The notes below the pieces were generated by a model. That model had not been told where the DNA came from. It made no database searches and worked only from the letters and a program-made list of their open reading frames with translations. A program made the translations under genes and the position numbers. A DNA stretch of 64,000 nt from Bradyrhizobium huanghuaihaiense (GTDB taxonomy: Bacteria; Pseudomonadota; Alphaproteobacteria; Rhizobiales; Xanthobacteraceae): positions 248,001 through 312,000 of the forward strand of contig NZ_VLLA01000005.1 in assembly GCF_007830635.1 (NCBI RefSeq), written 5' to 3'. Of this stretch, positions 52,489-58,628 are shown in pieces. How positions within the stretch are numbered: position 1 is the first letter of the stretch; each line of letters opens with the position of its first letter.

Positions 52489-53067
52489 TTACATCAGCGG
52501 CTCGTCCTTCAGCGCCGACACCACCTGCTCGCCGCGCTCGGTCAGGCGATAGGTCACCAGCGGCCGGCTCGATGGCGGCTTGCGATCGATCTCGACGATG
52601 TAGCCGCGCACCATCAGCGCTTCGAAGCTGCCGTAATAGCCGAACATGCTGATCTGGTTCTGCCTCAGCAGCTTGAACTCGCGCAGGAGGCGGATCTCGT
52701 TGCCCGAAAGCAGCGAGCGGCGCACGCGCTGCACGAACCGTGCGCGCTGCTCGAACCAGGCCTGATCGGGCAACTCATGCGCGGCCGGTGCCGGGTCGCG
52801 CTCGCAGGGGCGTGCCTCCGGCGCAGCGTCGGCCATCACCTGCGGCAGGCACGGCATGCTGCTCACGACCGCTTCCCTGGCGACATCGAGCAAGGCGATC
52901 GGCCAGCGCCGCTTGTTGTCCACCATGACCGGCGGCGGCACGACGTTGTCGCGCACCAATTGCTCGAAGCGCCCGGCGGTCACGCCGACATAGGCGGCCG
53001 CTCGTCGGCGATCGACCAGACGGGTGTCCGGCCCGTGCTCCAGCTCGCAAGCGATGTTCTCGTCCAC
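52489..53067 (-). CDS. Hypothetical protein with an AlpA/MerR-like HTH at its N-terminus
   Basis: A 192-residue protein. After a short acidic lead the segment LVDRRRAAAYVGVTAGRFEQ followed by VPPPVMVDNKRRWPIALLDV resembles the winged helix of AlpA/excisionase-like proteins. The C-terminal part (FVQRVRRSLLSGNEIRLLRE, VTYRLTERGEQVVSALK) looks like a second DNA-binding or helical domain. GTG 53067 follows AGGGG; the frame is open further upstream but that extension is shadow-like. It is divergent from the LysR gene. No phage or conjugative genes are nearby, so excisionase is unlikely; regulator is a guess. Confidence 0.55.
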   Translation of the reverse strand: MDENIACELEHGPDTRLVDRRRAAAYVGVTAGRFEQLVRDNVVPPPVMVDNKRRWPIALLDVAREAVVSSMPCLPQVMADAAPEARPCERDPAPAAHELPDQAWFEQRARFVQRVRRSLLSGNEIRLLREFKLLRQNQISMFGYYGSFEALMVRGYIVEIDRKPPSSRPLVTYRLTERGEQVVSALKDEPLM

Positions 53068-53184
53068 CCCGAAATCCCCTGGCGCCTCGTTGCGCGAAGC
53101 CCGGCGGTCCCCAAGGGGACCGGCCGGGCCGGCGGCGAACGTAAGGAGGAGCAGCGCTCTCGAAAAGCAGAGAATTTCGCACAT

Positions 53185-53204
53185 GTTGCTGCCGTTTCGG
53201 CAAC
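53185..53204. promoter_or_regulatory. LysR-type binding site (T-N11-A dyad)
   Basis: TGCCG-TTT-CGGCA (53190-53202) is a perfect T-N11-A dyad, embedded in an outer GTTGC...GCAAC pair (53185-53189 and 53200-53204). It sits 27 bases before the LysR gene's ATG and between the two divergent genes, the classical location for LTTR autoregulation. Confidence 0.6.
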
Positions 53205-53230
53205 GGCTATAGTCCTCCCCAGGGGACCCC

Positions 53231-54169
53231 ATGCGATTTCATTCACCCGCCATCCAGTACTTCCACGCCGTCCGCCGCACCGGCTCGATCCGGGCTGCGG
53301 CGCGCGTCCTGAACGTCGCCTCCTCGGCCGTCAGCCGCCAGATTCTCAAGCTGGAGCAAGAGGTTGGGTCGCCCTTGTTCGAGCGTAATGCGCGCGGCCT
53401 GACGCTGACGACGGTCGGCGAGATGCTGGCCCGGCATGTCATGAACGTGCTCCAGGACCTCGACCGCTTCCGCTCGGACGTCGCCTCCCTCTCCGGGGCC
53501 TGGAGCGGCACCGTCAGCATCGCCTGCATCGAATCGCTGACGGAATCCGTGCTGCCGGACCTGATCGCGTCCCATCGCGGCCGCGCCCGCCGCGTCAGCT
53601 TCACCACTGAGGTGAAGGGATCGTCGGACGTGCTGGAGTCCTTGAGCCGCGGCGAAGCCGACATCGGCATCGCCATGGCGCTCCGCCACCCGCCCGATTT
53701 GCGGCAGGTCGCCTTGAAGCGGTTTCGCCTCGGGGCGGTGGTCGCACGCGAGCATCCGTTGGCGCGCCGCAAGACGGTGACGCTGGAGCAATGCCTCGCC
53801 TTCCCCGTCATCAACGCGCTGCCGGAGCTGTCGATCTATCATCTGCTGCAGCCGCTGATCGCACAGCTCTCGGAGACGCCGGAGCCGGCGATCCAGGCCA
53901 ACTCGATCGACCTGATGCGCGAGCTCGCCGCGCGCGGCGTCGGTGTCGCCTTCCAGACCCAGCTCGGCATCAACAGGCTGTCACGCGACGGCCAGCTCGT
54001 CTTCCTGCCGCTCGACAACGCCGGCAGCCCGGTCTGGTCCGATCTCGGCATCTACGTCCGTGCCGAGCGGACGCTACCCGCCTACACGGACTCCTTCCTT
54101 CAGGAGCTGGTGCGCGAACTGGGCGAGCGCGAGCGGCGGGAGAACGCGGCCTATCCGCCGACCTCGTGA
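53231..54169 (+). CDS. LysR-family transcriptional regulator
   Basis: A 312-residue LTTR. It has the N-terminal HTH (RTGSIRAAARVLNVASSAVS, then RQILKLEQEVGSPLFERNAR) and the two-lobed effector domain (VSIACIESLTESVLPDLIAS; LSRGEADIGIAMAL; LREL-like segment ELAARGVGVAFQTQLG). AGGGG precedes ATG 53231. A T-N11-A site lies 27 bases upstream. The divergent neighbour (52489-53067) is its likely target, but the inducer is unknown. Confidence 0.9.
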   Translation: MRFHSPAIQYFHAVRRTGSIRAAARVLNVASSAVSRQILKLEQEVGSPLFERNARGLTLTTVGEMLARHVMNVLQDLDRFRSDVASLSGAWSGTVSIACIESLTESVLPDLIASHRGRARRVSFTTEVKGSSDVLESLSRGEADIGIAMALRHPPDLRQVALKRFRLGAVVAREHPLARRKTVTLEQCLAFPVINALPELSIYHLLQPLIAQLSETPEPAIQANSIDLMRELAARGVGVAFQTQLGINRLSRDGQLVFLPLDNAGSPVWSDLGIYVRAERTLPAYTDSFLQELVRELGERERRENAAYPPTS

Positions 54170-54192
54170 CGTCGCCTCAAGCGCGCCCGCGC

Positions 54193-54777
54193 TCAGCCGT
54201 GGCTTGCCGGCTTGCGGTGGCCGTTCTCGCTGAGGCGGTCGACCCAGGCGATGCCGATCGCGGAGATGATGAAGGTCAGGTGGATCAGGACCTGCCACAT
54301 CACACCGCTCTCGGTGAAATTGGAGCGCGTGGTGCCGAGATTGCCGGCCTCGATGAAGGTCCGCAGCAGCGAGATCGAGGAGATGCCGATGATCGCCATC
54401 GCCAGCTTGATCTTGAGCACGCTGGCATTGACGTGGCTGAGCCATTCCGGCTCGTCGGGATGGCCGCTCAGGTTGAGCCGCGAGACGAAGGTCTCGTAGC
54501 CGCCGACGATCACCATCACCAGCAGGTTCGAGATCATGACGACGTCGATCAGTCCGAGCACGACCAGCATGATCTGCTGCTCGCTGGCGTCGAAGGAATG
54601 CACGACCAGATGCCAGAGCTCTTTCAGGAACAGCAGCACGTAGACGCCCTGCGCGATGATCAGGCCGACATAGAGCGGCACCTGCAGCCATCGCGAGCCG
54701 AAGATCAACTGCGCGAACGGGCCGATTTGCGGTCGCGGCACGGCGTGCGCCGAAGGTGCTTTGCGTTCGGACGTCAT
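54193..54777 (-). CDS. YqhA / UPF0114-family membrane protein
   Basis: A 194-residue protein with four helices: WLQVPLYVGLIIAQGVYVLL, IMLVVLGLIDVVMISNLLVM, LKIKLAMAIIGISSISLLRT and WQVLIHLTFIISAIGIAWVD. Its length, the VIVGGYETFVSRL segment and HVNASVLKIKLA match the TIGR00645/UPF0114 family, whose function is unknown. It is the last of four minus-strand genes (TerB-like, membrane protein, TerC, this one), 49 bases after the TerC stop. Confidence 0.82.
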   Translation of the reverse strand: MTSERKAPSAHAVPRPQIGPFAQLIFGSRWLQVPLYVGLIIAQGVYVLLFLKELWHLVVHSFDASEQQIMLVVLGLIDVVMISNLLVMVIVGGYETFVSRLNLSGHPDEPEWLSHVNASVLKIKLAMAIIGISSISLLRTFIEAGNLGTTRSNFTESGVMWQVLIHLTFIISAIGIAWVDRLSENGHRKPASHG

Positions 54778-54826
54778 TGATTACTCCGGATTGGAGGCAG
54801 GAAGCGTCGCCTCAGAAGAATTGCGC

Positions 54827-55465
54827 TCAGAGACTCGCGATCACAGGCGCGAGCTCGAGCGAGCCCCGATAGATCATCTCGAAGGCGACGTAAACGATGA
54901 TGGCGAGACCGACATAGGCGATCCAGCGCTGCTTCTGCAGCACCCGGCCGAGCAGGTCGGCGGCAACGCCCATCATCGCGACCGACAGCAACAGGCCGAA
55001 GGCGAGGATGTAGGGATGCTCGCGCGCGGCGCCTGCCACCGCGAGAACATTGTCGAGCGACATCGAGACGTCGGCCGCGACGATCTGCACCGCCGCCTGG
55101 CCGAAGGTCTTGTGCGGCGCCGTCGCAGCATCCGCGCCGGGACCATGGCTGAACGCGAGCTGGTTGGAGTGCGCGGCCTGCTCGCGAATCTCGCGCCACA
55201 TCTTCCAGCACACCCACAAGAGCAGCACGCCGCCGGCGAGCAACAGGCCGATCACCTGCAGAAGCTGGGTTGCGACGCCGGCAAAGACGATACGCAGCGC
55301 CGTTGCGGCGGCAATGCCAACGATGATGGCACGCCGGCGCTGCGCGGCCGGAAGGCCGGCGGCGGCAAGGCCGATGACGACGGCGTTGTCGCCGGCAAGC
55401 ACGAGGTCGATCAGGACGACTTGAAGCAGCGCACTCAGCGCGTCGGCGGTGATGAATTCAGTCAT
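54827..55465 (-). CDS. TerC-family (YjbE-type) integral membrane protein
   Basis: A 212-residue membrane protein with seven helices. The two conserved acidic motifs of the TerC family are present: VLIDLVLAGDNAVVIGLAAA and ADVSMSLDNVLAVAGAA. The size and LPAAQRRRAIIVGIAAATAL put it in the YjbE-like subgroup, which is linked in some bacteria to Mn2+ or metal export. Its ATG overlaps the stop of the preceding small membrane gene (ATGA). No manganese riboswitch was recognised upstream of the operon. Confidence 0.87.
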   Translation of the reverse strand: MTEFITADALSALLQVVLIDLVLAGDNAVVIGLAAAGLPAAQRRRAIIVGIAAATALRIVFAGVATQLLQVIGLLLAGGVLLLWVCWKMWREIREQAAHSNQLAFSHGPGADAATAPHKTFGQAAVQIVAADVSMSLDNVLAVAGAAREHPYILAFGLLLSVAMMGVAADLLGRVLQKQRWIAYVGLAIIVYVAFEMIYRGSLELAPVIASL

Positions 55466-55824
55466 GATTGATCATTTTTCGGTGTGGACGGATCGAGCCA
55501 ATGCGGCTTCTTCCGCTCGATCCAGTCGAAGACCTTTGAACGGGAGGAACGCAGCGCCGGCACGTCCTCGGCGAGCAGCGCAAGGCCAAGCGGCAGCATC
55601 CAGACGCCGAGCACCGGCAGGAAGGAGAGCACTCCGCCGACGACGAGCAGCGCGCCCGAGGGGATCCGCACCCAGCGGCTGGACGGCTTGAGCAGATAGC
55701 TGACGGTGTCGGCCATGCGCGGCGGCAGACGGTGGACGAGCTTGTCGAGGCGCGGATCGCCGCCGGCCATCTGGCTGGCGGCGCCCGCGGTCCCGGTCGT
55801 GTGCTCATCCGATGCTGTGCTCAT
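55462..55824 (-). CDS. Small membrane protein between TerB- and TerC-like genes
   Basis: A 120-residue protein. Residues 1-55 are polar. Two hydrophobic helices follow (GALLVVGGVLSFLPVLGVWM; LPLGLALLAEDVPAL), then an Arg/Lys/Trp-rich tail (KVFDWIERKKPHWLD). The P-V-L-G-x-W-M-L-P-L-G element in the loop is distinctive, but I do not recognise the family with certainty. GGGAG before ATG 55824 decides over GTG 55830. It starts 2 bases after terB ends and overlaps terC, so it is certainly part of the operon. Confidence 0.7.
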   Translation of the reverse strand: MSTASDEHTTGTAGAASQMAGGDPRLDKLVHRLPPRMADTVSYLLKPSSRWVRIPSGALLVVGGVLSFLPVLGVWMLPLGLALLAEDVPALRSSRSKVFDWIERKKPHWLDPSTPKNDQS

Positions 55825-55826
55825 GC

Positions 55827-56282
55827 TCACTCCCTTGGGGCGGTGCTCACCGCACCCGGCCCGACCTGCTTCGCGCGCGGCAGCACCAGCGTCAAAAGCC
55901 GCAACAGCTTGATCGCCTGCACCTCATGCGGATGCACGTCCTCGTCCGCGGCCGCGACGCGCTCCGACAGCTCGATCAGATGCGACGACAGCGGCATGTT
56001 CGAAACCGGCCGCAGCGTGTCGATCACCACATTGGCAAAGTCCGGCTCTTCCAATCGTTCCGCAAGCTCGTCGAACATCGAAAGCAGCCGCTCGTCGCCG
56101 ATATGCGGCGCCAATCCGCGATCCCTGATGAAGCGGATCACCTCGTCACGCTCGACCGGCGAGACGCGCCGGTCGGCCACGGCGACCAGCGCGCCGGCAA
56201 TGACCAGCGCCACTGCGGCCTGCTCGTTCAGGCTGGACGGTTCGGTGATCTCGATCGTATTTGAGAATTTGGCGTCAGACAT
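55827..56282 (-). CDS. TerB-like (tellurite resistance) protein
   Basis: A 151-residue, mainly helical protein. EQAAVALVIAGALVAVADRR followed by VSPVERDEVIRFI has the A-x-A-D-G/R-x-[IV]-x-x-x-E pattern of TerB/DjlA-like domains, repeated at LIELSERVAAADEDVHPHEV. TerB domains bind metal and work with TerC at the membrane. GGAG before ATG 56282. It heads the four-gene operon terB-membrane protein-terC-yqhA. Confidence 0.78.
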   Translation of the reverse strand: MSDAKFSNTIEITEPSSLNEQAAVALVIAGALVAVADRRVSPVERDEVIRFIRDRGLAPHIGDERLLSMFDELAERLEEPDFANVVIDTLRPVSNMPLSSHLIELSERVAAADEDVHPHEVQAIKLLRLLTLVLPRAKQVGPGAVSTAPRE

Positions 56283-56418
56283 CGTTGCTCCTCGTTTTGC
56301 GCAAATGTCCGCGCGGAGCTGCGATGGAACGACGGGTCGGGAAGGAACTCGAGAGGGCCCGACGGTCGGCCGATCCATCGCATTCGCGCGGGACAGGTCA
56401 TCCGACATCGCGAGGTTT

Positions 56419-56434
56419 GCCGACATCTGTCGGC
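56419..56434. promoter_or_regulatory. Dyad upstream of the TerB/TerC operon
   Basis: GCCGACA-TC-TGTCGGC is a perfect 7-base dyad about 140 bases before the TerB ATG. It may be a regulator site or a leader hairpin. There is no T run, so it does not look like a terminator. Confidence 0.35.
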
Positions 56435-56575
56435 GTCCTCGCCAGAGGGGCCCGGATTCTTGTTCGCCTCAGACATAAAGATGGGTCTGTCGGAATCAAG
56501 GCGATACGACTGCGACCAGCCGCCGCATCGGTTCCGTGTTGCCATGTTTGGTTAAGCAGTTGCGCACGCAGCTCC

Positions 56576-56637
56576 GTAGCCCGGATGAGCGCAGCGATAT
56601 CCGGGACAGTGGTCGTCGCTTCGCTCATGCGGGCTAC
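56576..56637. repeat. GTAGCCCGGATGAG-family repeat, short copy
   Basis: The left arm reads GTAGCCCGGATGAGCGCAGC, continuing GATATCCGGGA; the right arm is TCGCTTCGCTCATGCGGGCT. Compared with the 31966-32052 copy the loop and part of the right arm are missing, leaving a 62-base diverged element. Confidence 0.75.
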
Positions 56638-56673
56638 GGGAGATGGCCATGGGCACCGCACACACCTGTTTCA

Positions 56674-56757
56674 ACCGTCATTGCGAGCGCAGCGAAGCAA
56701 TCCAGACTGTCTCCGCGGAAAGACTCTGGATTGCTTCGCTACGCTCGCAATGACGGT
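56674..56757. repeat. 84-base imperfect palindrome (CGTCATTGCGAGCG family)
   Basis: The ends read ACCGTCATTGCGAGCG and CGCTCGCAATGACGGT, continuing as AGCGAAGCAATCCAGA against TCTGGATTGCTTCGCT. One mismatch and a small loop interrupt the pairing. This class of element is common in rhizobial genomes and is unlike the two other families in the window. Confidence 0.75.
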
Positions 56758-56956
56758 GTATGGGCGACAGCGTCGCTCCTTCAATTCGAGCCTCGACAAG
56801 ATGCGCGACGGGACGGCGGCATCGCAGCCGTGTCACGATGGATCGCTACGATCTCAGGAACGCGCGCTCCGATGGGACGCAGCGTTCCGTCATAGCGCCC
56901 GCACAAGCTTCGGCAGCGAAAAGGTCGCCCAGAGTTCGTTGATCGCGGAGAATCGC

Positions 56957-57142
56957 ATGCATAGCATCACGTCCTGCACCGGCTGCGGCCATGCACTTGT
57001 CCCGATGCTGACGGCCAAGGGCCGCGCGGAGCTGAGCTGCCTCTGGTGCGAAGGCATCGACGCGCGCGCGGTGGACATGGCGAAGTGGGCGGACAGCCCG
57101 TCCGGCAAACCCGAGCGGATGGCTCGTCGGTCGTTCGAATGA
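56957..57142 (+). CDS. 61-residue CxxC...CxxC small protein
   Basis: From ATG 56957 (GGAG upstream) a small protein begins with two Cys pairs: TSCTGCGHALVPM and ELSCLWCEGID, spaced as in a zinc ribbon. The rest is polar (RAVDMAKWADSPSGKPERMA). It may bind zinc. I do not recognise a family. Confidence 0.55.
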   Translation: MHSITSCTGCGHALVPMLTAKGRAELSCLWCEGIDARAVDMAKWADSPSGKPERMARRSFE

Positions 57143-57488
57143 GCGGTATCAAGCGCTGAGCCGGCGGCATTCGCCTATGCCCGCGACTTGCAGGGCTGCA
57201 TGCCGTTTGCAGGACATGCCGACAAATTAGACAAGATACACCCCCGCACCGGACTTGCCGGCTTTGCGAGTTGGCCCGGGCAGGTTGGTGAACATGTTCT
57301 CTAACCTCAGGCGCAATCTCGATTTTTTTCGCGCCGCGTGAAGCCGGAGAGCTTGCGTGCTGCGCCGTGCGCCGACTGGCCCAAAATTCGCAAGACATCG
57401 TTACGCCGGATTCCCTGCCCTCCCACGACAGGAGCAGCAAGATGCGTGCGCCCAGCTCCGGGATGACGGCATCACATCGGAGAATGCC
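57143..57488. promoter_or_regulatory. 346-base upstream region of the bicupin gene with a 26-bp dyad
   Basis: At 57282-57307 the outer arms AGGTT and AACCT flank the 10-base palindrome GAACATGTTC (57290-57299) about one exact centre; 11 of 13 base pairs match. A T7 run lies at about 57325-57331, after no obvious stem. The dyad is about 180 bases upstream of ATG 57489 and is the strongest operator-like site in the window. No gene is seen here. Confidence 0.5.
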
Positions 57489-58628
57489 ATGAACGTGCAT
57501 GCCGCGGGCGATCTCAAATTCACCGGCCTCACCCGTCCGGATGGCTCCCCTCTTCGCCTCAACGATCAGGACTTCGTCGCGATCGATCGCGACAGGAATG
57601 CGAAGTTCGAGGCGACCTACCGGCCGCAGGCGCTCTACAACCGTGCCAACGAGGGCTTTCACGCCAACAACGAAACCTTCCTTCTGCACGAGGTCGCGAC
57701 CAACCTGCCGATCTACCGCCCGGACACCGGCCCCACCGATTTCCACCTGCATCTTCCGCCCGGCGGCTTCCAGCTCGTGCTGGTCACGTCGGGCGCGTTC
57801 ACCTTCGACTATGACGGGCGCTTCTACAATGTCGGTCCGGGCGCCGTGATGCTGCAAAGCGCGATCGTTCACCGCCAGCTGTTCTACACCTGGTCGGGTC
57901 TGTCGACCGAAGAGAACTTGAAGACGCCGCAAACGGTCGTGCCCGATCCGATCTCGATGGGCTATTCCGGCAAATTCCTCGAGGCCTTCATCACCGATCC
58001 CACCACCTTTCCGAACCCGACCATCGTCGGTCCGGACCAGATCAACGAGGCCGAGACGCCGCGCGTGGCCTGGAGTCATCAGTTGCACAACCGGCCGGCC
58101 GATGCCGGCTTCTGGCTTCAGGATCCCCTCGCGCTGGACGCGCTGTTCAAGCCGCTCACCGGCGGTGCGGTCAAATCGGCCCTGCCGGTCTACGTGCGCG
58201 ACATCGGCATCGAGATTCCCAGCGGTCATCTCGTCACCGGCCACATCATCGCGACCGATCCGCGCGGCCATTCGCTGCTGCCGAAGAGCACGTCCATCGC
58301 CGCGGACGCCGGCTGTTTCGCCAAGGGCGAGGTCGTGATCTACCGCGTCATTCGCGGCACCGCCGAGTTCAAGAACAAAGCCGGCGAGAGTTTTGAACTT
58401 TCCGCCGGCGACGTGGTAACGGCGGGCAAGGAGTCCGTCAGCCTCATTGGCGTCGGCGAGAACACCCAGGTCCTCCGCCTCGGCCTGCTCAAGGGCATGA
58501 ACGAGCTTCGCAGCTGGACGCCGACGCAGCGCGACGAGATCGACGGCCTTGCCGGTCAGATCATCACCCACAAGGACGTCCGTCCCCTGCGCACCGAAGG
58601 CAAGCCGGTCGGGTATCTGTACGGGTAG
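57489..58628 (+). CDS. Bicupin protein of unknown substrate
   Basis: A 379-residue protein with two cupin-like barrels. The first is DFHLHLPPGGFQLVLVTSGA, then FTFDYDGRFYNVGPGAVMLQ and the closing His in SAIVHRQ (H-x-H metal motif). The second is FAKGEVVIYRVIRGTAEFKN, then FELSAGDVVTAGKESVSLIG, which lacks clear metal ligands. GGAG precedes ATG 57489. It could be a dioxygenase, isomerase or binding protein; reading alone does not decide. It stands alone on its strand, so the upstream dyad is probably its own control site. Confidence 0.62.
   Translation: MNVHAAGDLKFTGLTRPDGSPLRLNDQDFVAIDRDRNAKFEATYRPQALYNRANEGFHANNETFLLHEVATNLPIYRPDTGPTDFHLHLPPGGFQLVLVTSGAFTFDYDGRFYNVGPGAVMLQSAIVHRQLFYTWSGLSTEENLKTPQTVVPDPISMGYSGKFLEAFITDPTTFPNPTIVGPDQINEAETPRVAWSHQLHNRPADAGFWLQDPLALDALFKPLTGGAVKSALPVYVRDIGIEIPSGHLVTGHIIATDPRGHSLLPKSTSIAADAGCFAKGEVVIYRVIRGTAEFKNKAGESFELSAGDVVTAGKESVSLIGVGENTQVLRLGLLKGMNELRSWTPTQRDEIDGLAGQIITHKDVRPLRTEGKPVGYLYG

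Follow-up and report, generated by a model that had tools for sequence, protein, structure and literature searches.

The terC RNA motif (Rfam RF03067), which is said to originate with work by Weinberg and others in 2017, is classed in Rfam as cis-regulatory, with no signal given there, and literature searches found no paper on the bacterial terC RNA. The text available from PMC11932211 deals with human telomerase RNA, not with the bacterial terC RNA, and that from PMC3441632 is without TerC. Another leader RNA, the yybP-ykoY Mn2+ riboswitch (RF00080), likewise precedes TerC/Alx genes in other bacteria: according to the available parts of the two reports, E. coli alx and mntP share manganese (Mn) riboswitches, with Mn binding strengthened by alkaline pH (PMC9603457), and Vibrio mneA and terC both lie behind yybP-ykoY and are Mn-responsive (PMC13274385). 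Two further points of comparison are the YjbE-type TerC proteins (TIGR03717) and the tellurite ter systems (TerZABCDEF). Here we describe a four-gene operon, encoding a TerB-domain protein, a small membrane protein, a TerC protein and a UPF0114/YqhA-type membrane protein behind a terC RNA, in a stretch of 64,000 nucleotides (nt) of Bradyrhizobium huanghuaihaiense (contig NZ_VLLA01000005.1, positions 248,001 to 312,000), hereafter the window. The four genes form a real, conserved and partly modular operon under the terC RNA, and our interpretation, held with somewhat more confidence than doubt, is that its products maintain ion homeostasis at the inner membrane, that stress probably induces it and that its terC RNA leader gates it.

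The terC RNA and the operon behind it

The terC RNA is a 5' leader element of 71 nt at 56463..56393 (49.1 bits against a gathering score of 39.9; minus strand, as are all features of the window below unless stated otherwise). It is the sole Rfam match over cut-off in the window, and RF03067 is over cut-off only this once in the genome (9.2 Mb, 101 contigs), with three weak matches below the cut-off. The window's copy shares with the motif its sequence core, its fold and its sense-strand position in the leader of a TerC-type operon, and differs in that TerB is the first gene and TerC the third. The preliminary description, in presenting the locus as an unexplained system, was right about a conserved unit and overlooked a known orphan cis-regulatory RNA. 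The dyad that it reported at 56419..56434 exists, but the sequence and the Rfam alignment identify it as the terC RNA's apical hairpin; a promoter operator was accordingly rejected here, the dyad being the tip of a leader RNA with defined structure and not a promoter element. A promoter-like pair sits at 56500-56473. RF00080 gave no match in the window at gathering score and none in the genome at an E-value of 0.01. An intrinsic terminator in the leader was also discarded, since the only terminator-like match within 53900-57400 falls within the UPF0114 gene on the plus strand, where chance alone would give 1.9 such matches in the region searched. Upstream of the operon, two palindromic repeats at 56574-56639 (24-nt arms, 92% complementary) and 56674-56757 (42-nt arms, 90%, no spacer) look like dispersed intergenic repeats.

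For the family as a whole, 314 distinct terC RNA copies were sampled, unevenly, from two class surveys, surveys of the family and genus of the window's lineage, a pattern scan of named genomes (at least 119 loci, with titles listed for 80) and a scan of viral contigs. Copies were detected by the sequence core with up to two mismatches, whereby divergent copies are dropped, and all p values are too small as the sequences are related. RNAalifold recovered 13 pairs from 91 sequences with the window as row 1, eight of them with changes on both sides; two covarying stems flank an invariant internal loop, and the 12-base strand CGGGCCCCTCTG is invariant across these 91 diverse sequences. For copies outside opposite-strand pairs, a gene of a recurrent family lies within 500 nt in sense orientation in 284 of 304 cases, in antisense in one and in neither in 19, although part of this sense excess, as well as the counts of families seen once, is self-fulfilling, because representatives of rare families were chosen from the same loci on the sense side; the TerC-type counts are independent of that choice. 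Ten copies have another copy within 600 nt on the opposite strand, and in L037, L042 and L047 (loci outside the window carry our L numbers) such back-to-back terC RNAs set an Alx-type TerC against DUF4112. Two copies on the same strand are found in Rubellimicrobium (L131, 5350-5390 and 5699-5748, about 350 nt apart) and in L199, one before a Ca2+/Na+ exchanger and the other before a YjbE-type TerC. On contigs of the viral collection, the terC RNA stands before DUF475 (L173, L174) and before TerB and a Ca2+/Na+ exchanger (L176), possibly within host flanks or on misassigned contigs. Loci L175 and L177 of the same collection were excluded from the alignment and promoter sets, since their core is suspected to lie in coding sequence, and are included in the 314 where distinct.

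The first gene of the operon encodes the TerB-domain protein (56282..55827, 151 amino acids; Pfam PF05099, 32.3 bits against a cut-off of 24.4) and is preceded by a GAGGAG ribosome-binding site read from the sequence at 56293..56288. Its stop lies two bases before the ATG of the small membrane protein (55824..55462, about 120 amino acids), for which an in-frame GTG at 55830 is also a possible start. This protein has a hydrophobic stretch by hydropathy and a conserved PxLGxWMLPLG motif; searched together with two homologs, it had no Pfam match at E-values up to 10, so that membership of a known Pfam family (PGPGW had been suspected) was set aside, and NCBIfam gave no match. It overlaps by four bases (ATGA) with TerC (55465..54827, 212 amino acids), which belongs by score to the YjbE subfamily (TIGR03717, 211.1 bits against a curated cut-off of 134.8; Pfam PF03741, 150 bits) and differs from other such proteins in its operon partners, namely TerB, the small protein and UPF0114. 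The UPF0114/YqhA-type membrane protein follows after 49 bases (54777..54193, 194 amino acids; PF03350, 127 bits; TIGR00645, 200 bits), so that all three gene junctions are as the preliminary description gave them. Sequence searches of the PDB with TerC and UPF0114 found nothing. The genome holds three TerC genes and two TerB-domain matches, the second of which (L001, G000:C1:590692-591042) reaches 125 bits in Pfam, far above the operon TerB. A paralog of the small protein with 42% identity lies outside the window (G000:C10:259373-259642), and distant homologs occur in many genomes of the genus, either well away from the terC RNA or on a different contig; the family therefore exceeds the operon. 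A link to tellurite had also been raised. TerB and TerC domains are common to this operon and the tellurite ter systems; however, the TerD family has no match in the window's genome, and a ter system is thus unlikely.

The terC RNA exceeds the cut-off in 88 of 98 Bradyrhizobium genomes, in 94 of 149 genomes of the family and, within the class, in 31 of 240 genomes (51 of 385 in a denser draw). Orthologs of the small protein (at least 61% identity) are present in 51 of the 98 Bradyrhizobium genomes, and every one of them is encoded 562-601 nt downstream of a terC RNA, on the strand of that RNA. The four genes stand in identical order in all seven TerB-carrying loci of Bradyrhizobium type that are long enough (the window, L101, L116, L126, L238, L239 and L240), with L126, which ends within the last gene, read up to its end; the first three stand in order before the locus ends in L295, L296, L299, L301, L303, L304 and L306. 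Records named Bradyrhizobium include L101, L116 and L126 with the operon behind the terC RNA, and L084, which ends after TerB. The arrangement is more than a chance one, given the four-gene order in these seven loci and the position of 51 of 51 orthologs behind a terC RNA, but it is not universal, as 37 of the 88 RNA-bearing Bradyrhizobium genomes are without a close ortholog of the small protein beside the RNA; those of their loci that were read mostly have the terC RNA followed directly by a YjbE-type TerC. Four loci of other genera show different combinations: the RNA is followed by TerB, the small protein, a YkoY/YgdQ-like TerC and UPF0114 in L266, by TerB, the small protein and a YkoY/YgdQ-like TerC in L332, by the small protein, Bax1-I and a YkoY/YgdQ-like TerC in L335, and by TerB, a small protein with a poor match (21-24 bits) and a Ca2+-ATPase-like gene in L267. 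From these four loci, TerB and the small protein seem to track a cation transporter under the terC RNA and not one TerC subfamily. The concern that the small membrane protein and YqhA could be unrelated passengers is eased by the same loci, the former being kept with TerB and/or a cation transporter under the terC RNA in L266, L332 and L335, and the latter being retained in L266 although the TerC type differs there.

Downstream genes, promoters and leader pairing

The first gene behind each of the 314 copies was taken to be the first gene of a recurrent family within 500 nt downstream. TerC proteins make up 192 of these, divided into 93 of Alx type, 69 of YjbE type (62 + 7), 15 YgdQ-like (a label chosen in this analysis) and 15 of DUF475 type. 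The remainder comprises TerB of the window's type (16), YegS lipid kinase (15), DUF465 (15, mostly weak, with assignments mostly at about 20-46 bits and one confirmed by Pfam), DUF4112 (11), a zinc ribbon (8), an unnamed small protein (7) and others at one to four each; 20 copies are without a recurrent-family gene, of which 13 had more than 300 nt to scan. YegS followed by a YgdQ-like TerC recurs in L062, L066, L069, L125, L133, L205, L206 and L245. Representatives identified by hidden Markov models include Alx, YkoY-like and DUF475 TerC, a P-type Ca2+-ATPase-like protein, a Ca2+/Na+ antiporter, Bax1-I, DUF4112, DUF533, TerB and CitMHS, with further matches to the zinc ribbon, DUF465, DUF2076, YegS, Tim44, Mrp subunit E, NhaA, ATPase inhibitor zeta, carbonic anhydrase, YdjM and, weakly, NhaD. 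Below their curated cut-offs are the Ca2+ ATPase of L044, the YkoY/YgdQ-like TerC of L029 and L266, the MntP of L220, the MamN/NhaD-like proteins of L045 and L273 and the Mrp subunit G of L085, the last belonging to a Tateyamaria locus in which an Mrp antiporter gene set lies downstream of the terC RNA. Five TerC types are found behind the terC RNA, and the downstream genes extend well past TerC.

The terC RNA stands close behind promoters. In a leader alignment, a promoter-like pair of CTTGAT (56500-56495) and TTTATGT (56479-56473), separated by a 15-nt spacer, is conserved among the Bradyrhizobium members, and its position would place the transcript start at the 5' edge of the terC RNA. Across the family, CTTG[AC] is found upstream of the core 152 times versus 26 in shuffles and mostly 40-47 nt before the core, and because of this peak the terC RNA probably lies at the 5' end of its transcripts. 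The RpoH1/RpoH2 consensus of S. meliloti reads CTTGAA-N15-16-CCTATAT and CTTGCC-N15-16-CCTATCT in the available part of PMC4843759. Allowing up to three mismatches in 13 positions, it is matched in 96 of 266 non-redundant terC leaders, compared with 27 of 2241 stretches drawn at random from the same loci and one of 28 Mn-riboswitch leaders. For the Alx and small-protein groups the motif takes the form CTTGAA...CC.A..T, and a looser pattern, CTTG...CC.A..T, occurs in 56 of the 266 terC leaders, five of 2800 random stretches and none of the 28 Mn-riboswitch leaders, with 12 of 28 clpB upstream regions as the positive control (two of 30 clpB loci were too short and were skipped). RpoH matches are frequent before Alx (40/83), DUF465 (10/15) and DUF4112 (7/10), and rare or absent before YjbE (8/48), TerB of the window's type (1/6) and DUF475 (0/15). 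The consensus of the RpoH (sigma-32) promoters of alphaproteobacteria recurs upstream of the terC RNA, whereas about two thirds of the terC leaders, including that of the window, have no match within three mismatches. In the portion of PMC8224329 available, Caulobacter genes called terB and terC are up under copper, with chaperones and RpoH up in the same setting.

In the minimum-energy fold of the window's full leader, the GAGGAG at 56293..56288 pairs with the CCCCUC strand. Over 180 leaders, 2.84 ribosome-binding-site bases are expected to be paired, versus 1.58 when the leaders are foreign and 1.28 when the loops are shuffled, an effect carried by the YjbE (4.74 vs 1.87) and Alx (2.96 vs 1.29) leaders. 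A simpler duplex test gave a loop free energy (dG) of -12.6 for 197 terC genes against -10.5 for 219 control genes, a difference matched by two of 200 shuffled-loop decoys, although ordinary anti-Shine-Dalgarno pairing is slightly stronger too in the terC genes (-8.5 vs -7.9). As a universal mechanism, pairing of the loop with the ribosome-binding site was rejected, being clear in YjbE and Alx leaders and not in those headed by TerB, DUF4112 or DUF475. Control of translation would seem likely for the TerC-headed leaders, and only possible for the operon of the window.

A model of the operon and its alternatives

A model may be proposed by which transcription most likely starts just upstream of the terC RNA, as the promoter position suggests, such that the RNA would be transcribed first. 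The terC RNA could then act as a two-state switch in cis, with the invariant CCCCUC strand pairing with the ribosome-binding site in state one; if a signal stabilised the compact terC fold, the site would be released and all four genes, from TerB to UPF0114, would be switched on at once. TerC is likely a cation transporter or metal-loading protein, for which TerB may be the soluble partner, possibly within a protein complex, and the small membrane protein could serve as an adaptor, as it would with other cation transporters too. As for the signal, alkaline pH or Na+ is ranked first, if tentatively; Mn2+ is ranked second and is rather doubtful; another ion or small molecule is less probable still; and a protein or temperature would take what probability remains. 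The relatives of the window suggest that the terC RNA governs a wider stress and ion-balance programme rather than mere manganese sensing. Extended to its full scope, a speculation to which we would give only a modest chance, the terC RNA would be a sensor of alkaline pH/Na+ (not Mn2+) and, coupled to RpoH promoters, would let two inputs, stress and ion, gate a regulon made up of antiporters, exchangers, TerC proteins and partners of TerB type, with TerB and the small protein as an exchangeable module for different cation transporters.

However, several observations weigh against these proposals. Pairing with the ribosome-binding site is not enriched in TerB-headed leaders of the window's type (0.95 vs 1.02) and has no effect in DUF4112 and DUF475 leaders, and the real median of 0.88 is below the 1.58 of the averaged foreign leaders. 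The window's promoter fits two consensus types equally well, with four mismatches in 13 positions to RpoH1 and four in 12 to a housekeeping-type consensus, and the latter is also enriched before the terC RNA (62 of 266 leaders, versus 22 of 2241 random stretches and four of 28 Mn-riboswitch leaders). Further, RpoH and RpoD motifs resemble each other, according to the available part of PMC3616915. Na+/H+ genes occur at one or a few loci each, the NhaA of L309 is a second gene after a small gene resembling DUF465 by eye, and the NhaD-like matches are far under cut-off.

It is also conceivable, though we think it improbable, that the terC RNA represents a second Mn2+ riboswitch class and that the operon serves in Mn2+ efflux or metalation, in the manner of E. 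coli alx or of Vibrio terC under yybP-ykoY. TerC proteins are indeed the prevailing first genes (192/314), TerC stands under the Mn2+ riboswitch elsewhere, as in those two cases (from the available parts of PMC9603457 and PMC13274385), and Ca2+-ATPase-like pumps would be compatible. However, in the surveyed alphaproteobacteria RF00080 precedes MneA/MntP-like genes. Its score exceeds the cut-off in 21 of the 240 class-survey genomes, and of 30 RF00080 loci, 21 lie before a GDT1/MneA-like gene, five before an MntP-like gene (by eye) and four before genes left unassigned, with TerC in none of the 26 that could be assigned; one locus of each kind was checked, L208 being GDT1 and L220 being nearest to MntP, below cut-off. 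In addition, nine genomes carry both RNAs over cut-off where 2.7 are expected (one-sided p 3e-4), an excess that may be caused by lineage, whereas the split in gene sets is not explained by lineage. NhaA, Mrp, carbonic anhydrase and DUF4112, moreover, are not Mn genes.

If the terC RNA were an RNA thermometer, supplementing heat-shock promoters with a further layer of heat control, this would accommodate both the RpoH-type promoters and the loop pairing in TerC-headed leaders, yet the invariance of CGGGCCCCTCTG in 91 sequences appears to exceed what a thermometer needs, and several gene groups are without the pairing. Rfam includes the ROSE thermometer families, and no thermometer family is among the Rfam matches at E-values up to 1 within positions 53000-58000; we regard this explanation as the least credible of those considered. 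The leader might instead be bound by a regulatory protein and not sense an ion or small molecule; an internal loop that is short, invariant and flanked by two stems would suit a protein no less than a ligand, but no candidate protein is at hand, and this too is unlikely. Similarly, a loosely joined set of genes in which the terC RNA serves TerC and the others are passengers has little probability in our estimation: it draws on the 37 of 88 RNA-bearing genomes of the genus without a close small-protein ortholog beside the RNA and on the many loci at which the RNA is followed by TerC alone, and is opposed by the gene order recurring in another genus with another TerC type (L266), by TerB and the small protein recurring in L332 and by the small protein heading a Bax1-I/TerC operon in L335.

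The preferred reading thus remains that of an ion-homeostasis operon under the terC RNA. The terC RNA itself is already known; what looks new, as far as the literature was searched, is how wide a range of genes it precedes, how its gene sets differ from those of the Mn2+ riboswitch, its association with the promoters described, and the modular operon with its exchange of transporter. The neighbors of the terC RNA, its separation from the Mn2+ riboswitch and the heat-shock-type promoters narrow the search for its signal and supply genes with which to test it, and the unnamed small membrane protein and UPF0114 gain a functional setting within a TerC-type cation-handling unit.

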